A stretch of 11,397 nt of DNA from assembly GCA_019308705.1 (NCBI GenBank), contig JAFDHW010000037.1:1-11397 (forward strand), read 5' to 3'. This DNA comes from Deltaproteobacteria bacterium. Its GTDB lineage: Bacteria > Desulfobacterota > Desulfobacteria > Desulfobacterales > Desulfatibacillaceae. A model generated the notes under the pieces. The model did not search any database, was not told where the DNA came from, and worked only from the letters and a program-made list of their open reading frames with translations. This document shows positions 4,111 to 10,587 of the stretch, piece by piece; the first letter of the stretch is position 1, and the number at the start of each line of letters is the position of its first letter. A program made the position numbers and the translations under genes.

Positions 4111-4953
4111 TCAGGGCTTCCCGGGCAGGGACGCCCCCCAGGCGGTTCCCAGGAAACATCCCCCTTCGTCCCCTATCCCGGCGGAGCCGCTTTGGGCCGG
4201 GGCCGGCGGAGGGGTGTAGGTTCCCACGGGGTAGGACGCGCCGCCGGACACGCCTACGGCGTCTATGTCGAATCCCGCGCTGCCCGTGGTGGGATAAGGG
4301 TCGTAGATGGGACGGCCCGAGGAATCCTTTTGCGAGCCGTCTCCGACCACGTCGATGATCCGCACCCTGGTGATGGCGGAAAGGTCCACGGTCCCGGCGG
4401 CCACCAGCGGGGCCGCGGCCAGGTCCGAAAGGTCGAAGGGCGTGCCATATCCCTGGCGGTACTTGCCCGCCAGCCCGTCGACGTCGGTGGGGTCCAGGGC
4501 GCCGAACGCCGACACGGGCGCGGCGGTGAGCGAAGTTGCGGGAAACCGGGCGAAGTTCACCCCGTCCGAGGACACCTCCACCCGGGCAAGCTCCAGGAAG
4601 GTGTCGGAAAACCCGTTCTCGAACACCGCGAAATCCCACCCCGGGCCGTCGGAAAAGGGCGCGAACACCAGGGTGATCTCCCCTGCCCTGCCCAGGGACA
4701 CCACGTCCAGGGAGTTGCCCTCGGCCGGTCCCAGGGCCTTGGCCGGGTCGGCGTAGGCCGGGTCCAGTTCCGCGCCCATGACGAAGTTCTCCCATCCCGC
4801 GGCCCAGGCCACGAACGCGGCGGAATCCTTGGGAATGGCCGTGGTGCCCGGGGTCCCGGCCGCCGGGGCGTAGGGTCCGGCCCAGGCGGGAAAGCACCCG
4901 AGGACAAGGGTTAGGGCCAACAAGCTGAACCAACGCTTTAAGGAAACGTCCAC
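4111..4953 (-). CDS. Secreted surface-type protein of the B12 operon, CF-box C-terminus
   Basis: A 280-residue exported protein of unknown biochemical function. A signal peptide (1-25) ends in AWA before Gly26. A less typical lipobox, VLGC with Cys20, is also present, so a lipoprotein is possible. The core has the look of a beta-rich family often called 'cell surface protein': [42 protein letters not shown] and [11 protein letters not shown]. After a Pro/Ala/Ser linker the tail has [12 protein letters not shown], with Cys266 the only cysteine besides Cys20. This resembles the CF-box C-terminal motif (CFIATAAYGS-like) of other secreted deltaproteobacterial proteins. The start is GTG with GGAGG six bases upstream. 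Its first 16 bp overlap the receptor gene, suggesting translational coupling. Its place in a riboswitch-controlled operon suggests a role in surface capture of corrinoids, which is inference. Confidence 0.8.
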
Positions 4954-6926
4954 GTTACGCCTCCACGGAAACTCCTGCCCGGCATGGGGTAATGGGCCTC
5001 GGAATAGGCCAGGCTGGAGTATTCCTGGTCAAAGATGTTGTTCACCCCCACGAAGGCCGAAAGATTGTCCGCGCGGTACTGCACCCCGGCCCCGGCGGTG
5101 AGGTAGGAGTCCAGTTTCTCATAGCGGGTGTTGTCCATGTCGTTGCCGTCGTAGCGCTCGCCCACCCAGTCTGCGTACGCGGTGAGAAGCCATTCCGGCC
5201 GGGGCGCGTATTCCACGCCCGCGGAGGCCGTTTGTTCCGGCACCAGGGGGATGGTGGCCTCGTCCTGGTTTTCGAACGTGGCCCGCAGGATGGTGGCGTT
5301 GGCCCAGATGGAGAGGCCGCTGGCCGGCCACGCGCGAACGCGCGCTTCCACGCCCCGGCGCAGGGTGTCATCCTCGAAGTTCCGGTTGGCCTGGAGCGAC
5401 TGGTCAAAGAAGATCTCGTCCTCGGTGTGGATATCAAACACCGTTACGCTGGTTTCCACCCATGATCCCAGGCGCAGCCGAACGCCGGCGTCCAGGTGCC
5501 GCGAGGTCTGGGATTCAAGGGTCCCGGCGGCGAAGGCCAGCTCGTCCACGTTGGGCACCCGGAAACTTGTGGCCCCGTTGAAATACAGCTCGGACCAGTC
5601 CGCGGGCGACCACACCACCCCGGCCTCCCAGGCCGTGTTGTCAAAGTCCCGTGTGGCCTCGGGGCCGTTCACCCAGTATGGAACCCCGCCGAAGTCCTTC
5701 AGGGCGTCGTCGCGGAAGGTCACCTCCTGGACGTCCGTGCGGCCGCCCGCGCGCAGGGTCAGGACCCTGGCCGGGGAGATGTTCGCCAGGGCGTAAAGTC
5801 CCAGGGTCTCCACGTCCGCGTTGGACCGGCGGTTCCGGGAGTTCTCCTGGCGGATGTAGTCCGTCTTGCGGTGGTCCAGGCCCAGGGTCAGGGACTGGTC
5901 CAGCCCGCCCACCACGCGGGACAGCCGCCAGGAGGCGTCCAGGAACCGGGAGTTTTCCTCGATGGTGTCGGTCTGGTCCTCCCCGGGCACCAGGGGCGAA
6001 AACCCGATGATGTAGGAGTCGTCCCGCACCCGGTAGGAGCGCTTGACCTTGAGCGTTCCCCACGGCCCCAGGTCCGCTTCCGCGCCCAGGGACGCGGACA
6101 CGTCCTCGGTGTGGGAGAAGTCATTCGGGTTCCTGGTGCCGTCGCGCAGGTCCGGGTCGTAGGCCCAGGCCGCAGGCACGGCTCCGGGCAGGCCCTGGTC
6201 CGCCTCGTACCACGAGCCCCGGGCGTCCAGGACCAGGCAGTCCCCCAGCCGGCGGGAGATCTTGGCCGCCGCGTCCTTCTTGCGCAAATACCCGTTGTCG
6301 CGGAACCCGTCGGAGTCGTAGTATCCCGCCGTGGCCCCGTAGGCCCATTTTTTCGTCCGGCCGTCCGAGGAAACCCGGGCATCCAGGGTGCCGAAGGAGC
6401 CGTAGGAGGTCGAGGTGCGCACCCGGGGCGGACCGTCGGGCCTTTTGGTGATGATGTTCACCACCCCGCCCACGGCCCCGGAGCCGTAGAGCACGCTCCC
6501 CGCCCCCCGCACGATCTCCAGGGACTCCACCTGGTCCAGGGACACCAGGGACAGGTCCGCGCCCCTGAGGTCCGCGAAGTTCCGACGCACGCCGTCCACC
6601 ATGACCACCACGTTGGAGGCCGCCGTGTCGCCCATGCCACGGATGTCCACCGCGGCCTGGCGGTCGTTGCCCAACGGGCTTCGGATGGTCACCCCTTCCT
6701 CCCTGGAGAGTAGTGCGGACACGGAGTCCGAGGCCGAGTCCTCGATATCCTGCCGGGAGATAACCGTGACGTTTCCGGGCACCTCGCCCGCAGTCTGCTC
6801 GGTCTTGGAGGCCGTGATCACCAGTTCCTCCATCTCGTAGCGCAGGGCGGGCTCGTCCTCCCCTTCCCCGGCGGACACCGGGGAAGGCAGGGAAAGCAGG
6901 ATGAGCAGCAATGCAATCTTTTTCAT
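4938..6926 (-). CDS. btuB: TonB-dependent outer-membrane receptor, BtuB-like (cobalamin)
   Basis: Energy-dependent outer-membrane channel, probably for cobalamin or other corrinoids. The 662-residue protein starts with a signal peptide (about 1-19, PSPVSA). The TonB box is ELVITA (34-39), similar to E. coli BtuB. The plug domain follows, with [12 protein letters not shown] (93-104), [10 protein letters not shown] (107-116) and [17 protein letters not shown] (138-154), then NIITKRP. The rest is a beta barrel ending in GGVTWTFP, an aromatic-containing terminal strand as usual for porin-like receptors. The length fits the vitamin B12 class (about 600-680). Cobalamin as substrate rests on the riboswitch and btuFDC upstream; sequence alone cannot exclude another ligand. 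No clear Shine-Dalgarno precedes the ATG, and a strong hairpin lies 11 bases upstream. The 3' end overlaps the next gene by 16 bp. Confidence 0.88.
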
Positions 6927-6937
6927 GAAGCATACGA

Positions 6938-6960
6938 GGCGGCCCCTGGATGGAGCCGCC
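6938..6960 (-). other. Stable intercistronic hairpin before btuB
   Basis: On the minus strand GGCGGCTCC pairs with GGGGCCGCC around ATCCA: nine pairs, one of them G-U. It ends 11 bases before the btuB ATG in the 72-bp gap after the DUF4465 gene. A second small hairpin (GGGC TTTT GCCC) lies further upstream in the same gap. There is no U-tract, so it is not a normal terminator. It could stabilise the mRNA or set the ratio of receptor to upstream proteins by occupying the ribosome-binding region. Confidence 0.45.
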
Positions 6961-6998
6961 CCGTCCTTTTTGATGCAAGGGGCAAAAGCCCGTGGGGG

Positions 6999-7823
6999 TT
7001 AGTCAAACAGCCGGTTTAGCAAGGTTGTGAGCAGGGAGCCCTGTCCCGCCGCGCCCACAAAGCACCCGGAAGAATCATCCGAGTCGGCTCCCACCTCAAG
7101 GGGCACGCCGTTTAAGCTGTCCAGGGCGAAATACGCGGGCGTGTTCATGCCCCAGTCACCATTGTCCGAGGAGGACAGGGAAAACTCCAGGGTCGCCGTT
7201 GAACCGAAGGCGGCCAGGTCCACCCATTTCCACTTGTCCAGGATGTAATCCTTGGTATTGTCGGAGAATCGGAAGTCCGCCAGGTAGACCTCCGTGGTGC
7301 CGGTGACCGCGCCCTGGGCGTCCCTGCCCGTGATGGTCAACAAAAACCAGTCCGGGTCCGTGCCGTCCGCTCCGCCGAACTTCTTGGCGAACGCGTTGCC
7401 CTCTTTCATGGTCCAGTAGGCGTAGGCCGTGTTGGTCACGTACAGGCCGCTGATGGGGGCGGCCCCCGTCGTGTTGGTTGCCACCGGAGGTCCGGCCATT
7501 CCCTGGTAGGCCACGCCGTAGGTGGCGGACCCCCGCACCCCGCCGCCGGTGATGGCGGCGTACTGGTTGGAGTAATCCTTGGTGGTGGTGTCCGTGACAT
7601 TGGAATAGGCGAAACCCTCCCAGGAACCCCAGGTGGCGTTGTAGATGTTGGCGAAATTCCAATCCCCGCTGGTGTAGGAGCCGGAGCCGTCCGCGCCGTT
7701 CCAAAAGGTTTCCGGGGACAAGACCGCGCCCACGTCCTCGAAATCCGCGGGCTGCGGCGCACGCAGGGCCAAAGCCGGCGTGGCCAGCAGAAACGCCAGG
7801 GCCAGGATCATCGGTTTTTTCAT
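6999..7823 (-). CDS. Secreted DUF4465-type protein with CF-box C-terminus
   Basis: A 274-residue exported protein. The signal peptide (1-19, ending TPALA) precedes a domain with the hallmarks of DUF4465: ADFEDVGAVLSPETFWNG (26-43), GSYTSGDWNFANIYN (48-62), WGSWEGFAYSN (65-75), then DYSNQYAAITGGGVRGS and AYFALDSL near the end. DUF4465 proteins are secreted beta-sandwich proteins seen beside TonB receptors for B12 in other phyla; this link is from memory. The tail is acidic (GADSDDSSG), then CFVGAAGQGS with Cys254, the only cysteine in the protein. A short hydrophobic end (LLTTLLNRLFD) follows. A strong GGGAGG lies six bases before the ATG, and btuC ends 16 bp upstream, so it is in the same operon. 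It may bind corrinoid at the surface and pass it to the receptor, or act in assembly; neither is shown by sequence. Confidence 0.85.
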   Translation of the reverse strand: MKKPMILALAFLLATPALALRAPQPADFEDVGAVLSPETFWNGADGSGSYTSGDWNFANIYNATWGSWEGFAYSNVTDTTTKDYSNQYAAITGGGVRGSATYGVAYQGMAGPPVATNTTGAAPISGLYVTNTAYAYWTMKEGNAFAKKFGGADGTDPDWFLLTITGRDAQGAVTGTTEVYLADFRFSDNTKDYILDKWKWVDLAAFGSTATLEFSLSSSDNGDWGMNTPAYFALDSLNGVPLEVGADSDDSSGCFVGAAGQGSLLTTLLNRLFD

Positions 7824-7839: not shown

Positions 7840-8862
7840 TCAATCCCGCTTCTTGAACAGGATGCGCAAGAAAACCGGCCCGCCGATCATGGCGGTGATG
7901 ATGCCCACGGGCATTTCCGTAGGAGCCACCACCGTGCGGGCGAACAAATCGCACAGGGTCAAAAATCCCCCGCCAGCCAAAAAGGAGGCGGGGAGCACCA
8001 GCCGCTGGTCGTGGCCGGAGAGCCTTCGCACCGCGTGAGGCACCACCAGCCCCACGAATCCGATGGGCCCGGCCATGGTCACGGCCGCGGCCGTGGCAAG
8101 CCCGGTGCCCAAAAACACCTGCTTGTGCACCTTTGCCACGTCCACCCCGTGGCCCGCGGCCATCTCCTCGCCAAAAGCCAACTGATTCAAGGCAGGCGCG
8201 TGGATGAACAAGAGAAAAACCCCGGGCACGGCCAGGGGCAGAAGCCCGGCCAATTCCCTGTAACCCACCACGTCCAGGCCGCCCATCATCCACCGGTCCA
8301 TGGTCACCAACAGGTGCGGGCTCACCAGGTAGCGCAAAAGCAGGATGGCCGCGCCGCACAGCACGTTGAACGTGACCCCGGCGAGCAAAATGGTGTTCAT
8401 GGAAACACCCGTGGCGCCCGAGGCCAGAAAGTAGATGGCCGCCATGCAGGCCAGGCACCCGGCCAGGGTGAACACGTGCACCGTGGAAAAGGGCCCCGCC
8501 GTGATCATGAGCGCGGGTACGGAGATGGCGAACACCGCGCCCACGGCTCCGCCCCCGGCGATGCCCAGGATGAAGGGCTCGGCCAGGGGGTTTCTGAGCA
8601 CCACCTGGAGGGAAGCGCCGGAAACCGCCAGGGACCCGCCCACCAGGAAAGCCAAAAGCACTCGTGGCAGCCGGTGGAGGAAAAAGATGTCCGCGCCCAC
8701 GCCCGCGCTCTTGCCCAGGACGGCGTGAAGCACCACGCCCGGGTCCAGGGGCTCGGCCCCGAAGAAGGGAGCCAGGATGAGCACCGCGACGGCCAAGACC
8801 GCGTACACGGCCAGCCGGGCCATGAAGCGCCCGGGGCTCTGGACAAGGGTTGCGCTGGTCAT
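7840..8862 (-). CDS. btuC: Cobalamin ABC transporter permease (FecCD/BtuC family)
   Basis: Inner-membrane permease that forms the cobalamin channel with BtuD and receives substrate from BtuF. The 340-residue protein is hydrophobic throughout, consistent with about ten membrane helices, the first near 17-34. FecCD-family motifs are clear: HRLPRVLLAFLVGGSLAVSG (63-82) followed by LQVVLRNPLAEPFILG (85-100), then a glycine-rich turn. The late GPIGFVGLVVPHAVR motif, the coupling-helix region that contacts the ATPase, is also present. The length matches BtuC/FecD (320-350). The ATG overlaps the btuD stop in ATGA, and GGAGG lies six bases upstream, so the two are translationally coupled. By sequence alone iron-siderophore permeases look similar; the riboswitch decides for cobalamin. 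Confidence 0.9.
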   Translation of the reverse strand: MTSATLVQSPGRFMARLAVYAVLAVAVLILAPFFGAEPLDPGVVLHAVLGKSAGVGADIFFLHRLPRVLLAFLVGGSLAVSGASLQVVLRNPLAEPFILGIAGGGAVGAVFAISVPALMITAGPFSTVHVFTLAGCLACMAAIYFLASGATGVSMNTILLAGVTFNVLCGAAILLLRYLVSPHLLVTMDRWMMGGLDVVGYRELAGLLPLAVPGVFLLFIHAPALNQLAFGEEMAAGHGVDVAKVHKQVFLGTGLATAAAVTMAGPIGFVGLVVPHAVRRLSGHDQRLVLPASFLAGGGFLTLCDLFARTVVAPTEMPVGIITAMIGGPVFLRILFKKRD

Positions 8863-9662
8863 GGCGCGCCTCCGGGGTCCGGCACCACCAGGGGCCCGGC
8901 CGCGTCGGGCGAGTCCAGCACCCGGATGCCCTCGCCGTACACGGACGCCAGAACTTGTTGGGTGATGAGCGCCGCGGGTGGGCCTTCCTGGATCACCCGC
9001 CCGTCCTTGAGCAGCAGCAGGCGGTGGGAAAACCGGGACGCCAGGTTCAGATCATGGGTCACCACCACCGCGGAAAGCCCCTGGCTGCACAACTTTCTCA
9101 CCAGGCGGAAGAACCGCACCTGCTGGTGGATGTCCATGGCGCTGGTGGGTTCGTCCAGAAGGAGCACCCGCGGCTGTTGGGCCAGGACCGAGGCCAAAAG
9201 CACCCGCTGGCGTTCGCCGCCGGAAAGCCGGGAAAAGGAACGGCCCGCCAGGCCCAGGACGTCCGCCTGCTCCATGGCGCGCTCCACCGCGGCCACGTCC
9301 TCCGGGCCCAGAAACCCCGCCCCGCGGCAATGGGGAAACCGGCCCATGGACACCGCCTCTTGAACGGAAAAGTCCAGGCGCGCCGGGGCCTGCTGGGGAA
9401 GGTATCCCAGGATCCGTGCGCGGGCCTTTCGGCTCAGGGCGGACAGGTCCCCGGCCAGGGCCAGCACCCGGCCCGAGGAAGGAGCCATGATCCCCGAGGC
9501 AATGCGCAAAAGGGTGCTCTTTCCCGACCCGTTGGGGCCGATCACCCCCAGCACCTCGCCCTTTTCCACGGCAAAGGAGACTTGTTTAAGGGCGAAGTTG
9601 GCCCGGGGGTAGGAGAAGCACACCTCCTCCACGGAAAGCAGGGCCTTTTTCCAGCTATTCAT
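8859..9662 (-). CDS. btuD: Cobalamin ABC transporter ATPase (BtuD type)
   Basis: Cytoplasmic ATPase that drives the BtuC permease. With the start chosen here it has 267 residues: Walker A GPNGSGKST (42-50), Q-loop PQQ (89-91), signature LSGGERQRV (146-154), Walker B VLLLDEPTS (166-174) and H-loop His203 in VVVTHD. All catalytic residues are intact. The open frame extends upstream to 9788, but the extra 42 residues overlap btuF and look like out-of-frame translation. The ATG at 9662 is preceded by GAGGAGG and begins directly before the first strand (LLSVEEVCFSY). It overlaps the last 8 bp of btuF (ATGAATAG). The C-terminus after about residue 235 is Pro/Gly-rich and not conserved in the family. 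Confidence 0.92.
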   Translation of the reverse strand: MNSWKKALLSVEEVCFSYPRANFALKQVSFAVEKGEVLGVIGPNGSGKSTLLRIASGIMAPSSGRVLALAGDLSALSRKARARILGYLPQQAPARLDFSVQEAVSMGRFPHCRGAGFLGPEDVAAVERAMEQADVLGLAGRSFSRLSGGERQRVLLASVLAQQPRVLLLDEPTSAMDIHQQVRFFRLVRKLCSQGLSAVVVTHDLNLASRFSHRLLLLKDGRVIQEGPPAALITQQVLASVYGEGIRVLDSPDAAGPLVVPDPGGAP

Positions 9663-10587
9663 GGGCCTCCTCCCCGTGGAGCACTTCGGCGAACCGCTGG
9701 GTGGCCAGGCCGACCCGCGGGCCGGGGACCAGGAGAAAATCCCGGGTGAGCACGTGGATCTCGCCGTTCTCCACCGCGGGCACGCCACGGAGCACCTTCC
9801 ACGCGGCCTTGAGCTTTTGGGCCTGTTCCGGAGAGATGTCCCGGCCCAGGCGGATGTCCAGGATCACTTCGGGCGCGCGGCGGATGAGCACCTCCTTGGA
9901 GGCTTCCGGGTAAGGGTGGTTCACGTCCGCAAAGATGTTGTCGCCGCCGGCGATTTCCACCAGCTGGCTAACGAAGCTGTTGCCTCCGGTGGTGTACAGG
10001 CTGGCGACCCCGCCCGGCTCCCGGCCGATGCAGATGAACACGCTCCGGCGCTTCTTGCCCGCGATGCGCTTTTTCACCTCGTCCAGGCGGGCCTGGATGT
10101 CTCTGATGAGGGCCTCGCCCCGGTCCACGCAGGAAAGGGTCTTCGCGATGGTGCGGATGCCCTTGTAGATGGTGGGGATGGAGTCCATATCCACGAACAG
10201 CATGGGAATGCCGCGCTTTTCGCAGAACCGGGCGGTCTTTTCGCTTTTGCCCTGGAGGATGACCAGATCGGGCCCAAGCACGGTGATGCGCTCGGTGTTG
10301 GGGTTCAGGTGCCCGCCCACGCTGGGCTTTTCCAGGGCCTCGGGGGGGTAGGTGCAGAAATCCGAGACCCCGGCCACCCGGTGGCCCTGGCCCAGGGCGA
10401 ACACGATCTCCGTGATGGAAGGTGCCATGGTGATGATGCGGGAGGGAACGGGTCCGGAAGCCCGGGGGAGCTTGGAATCCACGGCCTGCGGGCCGGAAGG
10501 CAGCCCAAGCAAGACCGCCAGGGCGGCGAACAGAAAGGACCCTGCCAGGGCGGCTTTTCTGCGGAAAAATGTCCGTTTTCCAGGCAT
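9655..10587 (-). CDS. btuF: Periplasmic cobalamin-binding protein (BtuF-like)
   Basis: Captures cobalamin in the periplasm and delivers it to BtuCD. The 310-residue protein has a basic N-terminus (KRTFFRRK) and a hydrophobic signal segment (about 11-29), cleaved near GPQA. The class III binding-protein fold begins with RIITMAPSITEIVFALG (50-66), then VAGVSDFCTYP and GPDLVIL. Later come LYTTGGNSFVSQLVEIAGG and EVILDIR, and the C-terminal PAVENGEIHVL and PGPRVGLATQRFAEVLHG. The two-lobe pattern with a joining long helix fits BtuF/FhuD-type proteins. This is the first gene after the cobalamin riboswitch. Its ATG touches the U-tract of a terminator, and the only Shine-Dalgarno (AGGA) lies in the terminator stem. 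An internal alternative start is unlikely because the signal peptide would be lost. Confidence 0.92.
   Translation of the reverse strand: MPGKRTFFRRKAALAGSFLFAALAVLLGLPSGPQAVDSKLPRASGPVPSRIITMAPSITEIVFALGQGHRVAGVSDFCTYPPEALEKPSVGGHLNPNTERITVLGPDLVILQGKSEKTARFCEKRGIPMLFVDMDSIPTIYKGIRTIAKTLSCVDRGEALIRDIQARLDEVKKRIAGKKRRSVFICIGREPGGVASLYTTGGNSFVSQLVEIAGGDNIFADVNHPYPEASKEVLIRRAPEVILDIRLGRDISPEQAQKLKAAWKVLRGVPAVENGEIHVLTRDFLLVPGPRVGLATQRFAEVLHGEEAHE

Follow-up and report, generated by a model that had tools for sequence, protein, structure and literature searches.

Organization of the locus

We analyzed a stretch of 11,397 nucleotides (hereafter, the window), which is an entire contig (C219) of a desulfobacterial genome of 2.84 Mb (500 contigs, 95.7% complete). 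Its minus strand reads, in order, a cobalamin riboswitch, btuF, btuD, btuC, a gene for a secreted DUF4465 protein, a TonB receptor gene and a gene for a second secreted protein, here called BtuH-like. Both secreted proteins end in a short cysteine-bearing tail, which we refer to as the CF tag. A preliminary description of this DNA had noted two secreted proteins flanking the receptor, and their open reading frames do lie on either side of it (6999-7823 and 4111-4953 around 4938-6926, all on the minus strand). Taken as a whole, the series is likely to be a riboswitch-controlled corrinoid uptake operon with two tag-anchored capture proteins. Its features are the following.

10904-10707, minus strand: cobalamin riboswitch RF00174 at the operon head (cmscan 100.5 bits, above the gathering threshold of 31.5)
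9655..10587, minus strand: btuF-like periplasmic binding protein (PF01497, E 2.3e-30)
8859..9662, minus strand: btuD-like ABC ATPase (PF00005, E 5.2e-31)
7840..8862, minus strand: btuC-like permease (PF01032 FecCD, E 3.4e-80)
6999..7823, minus strand: DUF4465 (BtuJ-type) secreted protein, 274 residues (PF14717)
7416..7433, minus strand: NTAYAY motif (DE loop) of the DUF4465 protein, Y134 aligned with BtuJ1 Y146
7128..7145, minus strand: NTPAYF HI-loop motif of the DUF4465 protein, Y231 aligned with BtuJ1 Y245
7002..7067, minus strand: CF tag of the DUF4465 protein, G253-D274, with Cys254
4938..6926, minus strand: TonB-dependent receptor, BtuB-like (PF00593 and PF07715)
4111..4953, minus strand: BtuH-like secreted protein ("VFENG" protein), 280 residues, GTG start
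4609..4626, minus strand: VFENGF motif (residues 110-115) of the BtuH-like protein, N113 and F115 aligned with BtuH2 N399 and F401
4114..4161, minus strand: CF tag of the BtuH-like protein, G265-P280, with Cys266

The GTG start of the BtuH-like gene overlaps the receptor gene (btuB) by 16 bases. For the btuD-like gene, the ATG at 9662 is our choice of start, and the open frame extends beyond it. The top NCBIfam match of the btuF-like protein is BtuF PRK03379 (119.4 bits, below the cut-off of 234), and the receptor is named BtuB-like because of its operon context.

Two candidate corrinoid-binding proteins

The DUF4465 assignment of the preliminary description holds: the protein scores 192.7 bits against PF14717 (well over the gathering threshold of 25) and matches the solved DUF4465 structures 9hmu and 9fct at E 8e-27 and 6e-26, respectively. 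The conserved B12-binding tyrosines of the DE and HI loops are both kept. For this family, the available parts of two papers describe the HI-loop motif and report eight divergent members as B12 binders, the six new ones among them being the ones with good expression (PMC13398666), and report tight B12 binding and action on vesicles for BtuJ1/J2 (PMC12751083). The window protein shares with BtuJ1/BtuJ2 and other DUF4465 proteins, as presented in those parts, the Pfam domain, the tyrosine-bearing loops and a riboswitch-regulated B12 operon, but it belongs to a lineage outside Bacteroidota and has a C-terminal CF tag and a signal peptidase I-like leader rather than an N-terminal lipobox. The DUF4465 half of our finding is largely known already at the family level, and a remark in the available part of PMC13398666, that DUF4465 genes adjoin further DUF families that look like accessory proteins of B. 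theta, partly anticipates the present result.

Sequence-only searches of the second protein against Pfam, NCBIfam and PDB gave nothing above cut-off, a viral library search gave nothing useful, and no Pfam match was found for its family of 7941 homologues. The sole recurring weak match is the Leptospira lipoprotein family LIC_13355 (NF033170), which is seen in 45 of 48 members at a best E of 1.8e-4; the window protein itself scores 13.4 bits, where the cut-off is 120. The protein does have the fold of the C-terminal B12-binding domain of BtuH. BtuH2 is ahead of the other matches by 3 Z units in a structure comparison, and its B12-contact residues N399 and F401 are matched by N113 and F115 in a profile alignment. 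BtuL was tried as the counterpart and rejected, with the family profile scoring −0.6 bits on B. finegoldii BtuL versus 12.4 on its BtuH2. Compared with the C-terminal domain of B. thetaiotaomicron BtuH2 (PDB 7biz; PMC8941943), the window protein has 17% identity and neither the PKD domains nor the N-terminal lipid, and its domain is shorter, with 190 model residues spread over 275 of 7biz. Its relatives are found in several phyla, whereas PMC8941943, which covers 313 gut species at a similarity level of BLASTX E up to 0.03, has Bacteroidetes and three Firmicutes; in the part of the matching literature that was covered, we found no paper on a BtuH-like protein outside these two groups.

We compared the loci of the best 80 of 181 relatives from one species-genome scan, or 81 loci with the window. 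Going by record titles, the 80 loci span Desulfobacterota, Pseudomonadota, Planctomycetota, Verrucomicrobiota and kin, Spirochaetota, Myxococcota and Bacteroidota. On contigs that are often short, a TonB receptor is present in 52 of the 81 loci and a DUF4465 domain above 90 bits in 53. A cobalamin or adenosylcobalamin (AdoCbl) riboswitch lies upstream on the same strand in 42 of the 59 loci (of the 80) that were scanned for it. From the window's own phylum, nine loci were fetched and seven RNA-scanned (L152 appears identical to L023); all seven have the riboswitch, even those whose match is as weak as E about 1e-17 to 1e-19, and one of the seven, L150, has it with no receptor or DUF4465 gene detected in 19.9 kb. 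The family is sporadic, occurring in 10 of 198 genomes of the phylum, the window genome included. In six loci (L043, L067, L069, L074, L080, L090), a DUF4465 and a BtuH-like domain share a single open frame, and by eye P0171 and P0225 hold both within a single protein. Fold, profile and riboswitch linkage together support the second protein as a putative BtuH-like binder, and with a BtuJ-type partner the earlier suggestion of a corrinoid-capture system outside Bacteroides gains ground. The main domains of the two proteins had been described as unlike; this holds, but each falls within, or comes close to, a class of B12 binder that has already been described.

The loci also vary in layout. The fused frames of L043 and L069 contain three DUF4465 copies. 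In L068, L091 and L150, the BtuH-like gene is the first match behind the cobalamin riboswitch and the stretch has no DUF4465 match; farther along, L091 shows a receptor match that is weak (37 bits). In L042, a cyclic di-GMP riboswitch (7412-7487) follows two cobalamin riboswitch matches and closely precedes the DUF4465/BtuH-like genes.

The C-terminal CF tag

The only cysteine of the DUF4465 protein is C254, and the BtuH-like protein has C266 and C20, the latter within the signal peptide. Each mature form is left with one cysteine, in agreement with the preliminary description, and these lie in similar C-terminal tags, as it also stated (the DUF4465 tail is SGCFVGAAGQGSLLTTLLNRLFD). Residues 16-20 of the BtuH-like protein ("LVLGC") resemble a lipobox, but because relatives carry AxA|GPY at this site without a conserved Cys, cleavage by signal peptidase I appears, by eye, to be the better reading. 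From the Cys onward, the tags have 21 (DUF4465) and 15 (BtuH-like) residues, and read from sequence they show no helix with a basic end; residues 259-280 of the BtuH-like protein have a predicted local distance difference test (pLDDT) value below 50 in the full-length model. The proposed check against a CF-box model gave mixed scores: the DUF4465 protein has the short GCF[IVL] motif of the NCBIfam CFI-box putative sorting motif NF041763 and scores 17.1 bits in a genome search, over the cut-off of 15.9, but 14.0 bits at the protein level by hmmscan, and the BtuH-like protein has no match at E 1.

Judging from its conservation, the CF tag is not a chance feature: C[FVL][ILVFM] occurs in the last 60 residues of 119 of the 120 best BtuH-like homologues (of 7941), with 5-18 residues after the Cys in 114 of these 119, GCF falls within the last 30 residues in 113 of the 120, and G265, C266 and F267 are invariant in all 48 aligned members, which we selected from the 120. 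Among the best 120 DUF4465 homologues, the loose motif occurs in 14 (at least one of which, P0155, is PEP-type by eye), and simple patterns find PEP-CTERM-like tails in 50 and a PxP variant in 8. From the 119 versus 14, the tag is nearly fixed in the BtuH-like clade and one option among several in DUF4465.

The tails of the two partners tend to agree in class. Both proteins lie in separate complete frames in 45 of the 81 loci, and a rule-based classifier assigned their tails to CF, exosortase-type or other. The partners share a class in 34 of the 45 by classifier versus 18.5 by shuffling, and in 37 after by-eye correction of three tails (L030, L070, L076); the L028 tail was also misclassed, but it belongs to an unpaired locus outside the count. 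One of the 37, L073, has neither a CF nor an exosortase-type tail on either protein. This agreement favors the earlier suggestion that a C-terminal tag stands in place of an N-terminal lipoprotein anchor. By eye, the CF tails take three forms. L024, L038, L052 and L083 carry the complete CFI-box domain; in L020, L032, L035, L044 and L088 the Cys is followed by a helix and a basic end; and the third is the short form seen in the window. In L151 (same order), a single operon pairs a helix-form DUF4465 protein with a short-form BtuH-like protein.

The tag is general in the genome rather than specific to the B12 pair, because three further secreted proteins have convincing C-terminal CF tails by eye: an S8 peptidase on C30 (PF00082, 172 bits), a multicopper-oxidase-like surface protein of very large size, also on C30 (PF07732, 65 bits), and a protein on C36. 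A tail at a C50 site (L105) is doubtful. All 48 GGNTGYTTYVTN sites of the genome were read in frame; a reversed-pattern control has 30 sites, and most matches are therefore chance. The idea of a tag particular to the B12 pair is abandoned; the finding of such tails on unrelated secreted proteins, which the preliminary description would have counted against its proposal, tells partly against it for the tag and not for the B12 role. NF041763 is a weak model of 14 positions; it exceeds its cut-off in 7 of 99 genomes of the phylum, the window genome included, and in the control B. subtilis.

One tagged protein has an unusual layout. On C30 (L144, 7939-16449), a 2836-residue secreted protein with multicopper-oxidase matches contains one GGGCF-helix segment internally and ends in a GGGGGGGCF-helix-Arg tail, resembling two tagged proteins joined.

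The MYXO-CTERM/myxosortase tags, as presented in the available part of PMC11980579, likewise have an invariant Cys in a C-terminal motif of secreted proteins, and the full layout of Cys, helix and basic end is found in some CF-tailed relatives (L020, L032); the window tags differ in lacking a transmembrane helix with a basic end behind it. The proposal in that part is that the Cys is lipidated, a CPBP protease cuts on its far side and type II secretion exports the protein. The window genome has GspD and two CPBP-type (Rce1-like) proteins, the latter with no visible link to the CF tag. It has no exosortase match at E 0.001, and exosortase and CPBP searches of the genome found no dedicated sorting enzyme. 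We give slightly less than an even chance to the short tag anchoring by its Cys, as in MYXO-CTERM, with no need for a cut, since only a short stretch comes after the Cys; of all the steps in our account, this is the weakest. We found no paper on "cfi-box" tags, and the available part of a paper naming both makes no link between the cobalamin riboswitch and pep-cterm.

A proposed capture mechanism and its alternatives

In the mechanism that we infer, B12 scarcity would lead the riboswitch to permit expression of the operon, and the BtuJ-type and BtuH-like proteins would be exported and bind corrinoid outside the outer membrane. They would pass it to the TonB receptor encoded between their genes, from which BtuF and BtuCD would carry it across the inner membrane. 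The general CF tag would hold the proteins at the surface, most likely via a modified single Cys, and would replace the N-terminal lipid of the Bacteroides proteins. The capture role of the pair is quite likely.

Several results weigh against this account. The hhalign match to BtuH covers 44 columns only, and the HMMER family profile finds the BtuH structure 8blw in PDB at E 0.16, a weak similarity for which we use the label BtuH-like rather than BtuH. A narrower profile did not find 8blw in PDB at E 10, phmmer gave no direct BtuH sequence match, Foldseek with both models gave no match below E 0.001 and no B12 protein among the best 50, and 8blw is absent among the best 50 structure-comparison matches listed. 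The BtuH2 contact Q333 would align, by motif, with T34 (Q in 33 of 69 relatives), and the contact mapping covered N399, F401 and Q333 of a set that also comprises H476, Y510, W511, W577 and L578. The receptor scores 171.9 bits against TIGR01779 (TonB-B12; cut-off 599.7) and more, 201.6 bits, against the siderophore model TIGR01783 (TonB-siderophor), which is still below the 223.5 cut-off. Upstream riboswitches are missing from 17 of the 59 scanned loci, and the helix present in characterised Cys tags is absent from the short tags of the window. For the tail concordance, 36 of the 81 loci were dropped for lack of a pair in separate frames or because a frame was cut, and eight of the 45 are discordant (L024, L038, L054, L059, L061, L064, L093, L094), with Verrucomicrobia and kin contributing five. 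Since loci from the same lineage are not independent of each other, the concordance is support, not proof.

The anchoring role of the cysteine has two competitors. The lone C-terminal cysteines of a capture pair could instead form a disulfide, to each other or to other partners, with no lipid, which would suit the single cysteine per mature protein and the linked genes. We assign this a rather small probability, as the same tail is on other secreted proteins of the genome, many relatives carry PEP-CTERM-like tails mostly without Cys, the L151 partners differ (Cys, helix and basic end versus the short form), and some relatives have further cysteines. A part in B12 chemistry, e.g., as a cobalt ligand, as a cysteine is in the transporter BtuM, would fit the invariant Cys of the 48 chosen members of the BtuH-like clade, but it is very improbable: PEP-CTERM-like-tailed relatives that keep the riboswitch (L036, L049, L055) have no Cys tag, the tag is also on proteins without a visible B12 link, and the very low model confidence of the tail is as expected for a disordered end.

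The capture role itself can be questioned on two grounds. A B12-regulated adhesin or glycan binder, discoidin/CBM32-like and not binding B12, is an improbable identity for the second protein given the lead of BtuH2 in the structure comparison, the BtuH profile match with aligned contact residues and the open frame shared with DUF4465 in six loci. Both proteins might also act as helpers in the periplasm, encountering B12 once it has passed the receptor, with the tags holding them on the periplasmic side; the available part of PMC13398666 describes a minority of DUF4465 proteins that are not lipoproteins and have periplasmic targeting signals. In the operon, this role is already filled by BtuF. 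The PEP-CTERM system is generally taken as an outward route of protein sorting, and PEP-CTERM-like tails are present in sister loci, which also makes periplasmic helpers improbable.

If surface capture by the tagged pair is correct, high-affinity B12 scavenging at the surface, mostly studied in gut Bacteroides, would extend to several other phyla, thousands of unnamed secreted proteins (the 7941 homologues) would gain a function, and B12 uptake would offer a clean assay for a kind of C-terminal sorting tag that we did not find treated in any paper. More speculatively, and with the chances rather against it, BtuJ and BtuH-like proteins might form a capture cassette found across many phyla, with the anchors of both exchanged together to fit the sorting machinery of each lineage (N-lipoprotein, PEP-CTERM, type IX secretion system (T9SS), CF tag), in which the helix-less GCF tail, with 5-18 residues after the Cys, would be an undescribed minimal anchoring signal and its Cys would be modified without an intramembrane sorting protease.

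Elsewhere in the window, the plus strand carries glgA-like and glgB-like genes, with a partial trkH beyond the riboswitch. A long GC-rich inverted repeat at 169-205, before glgA, was noted by eye and is possibly a terminator.
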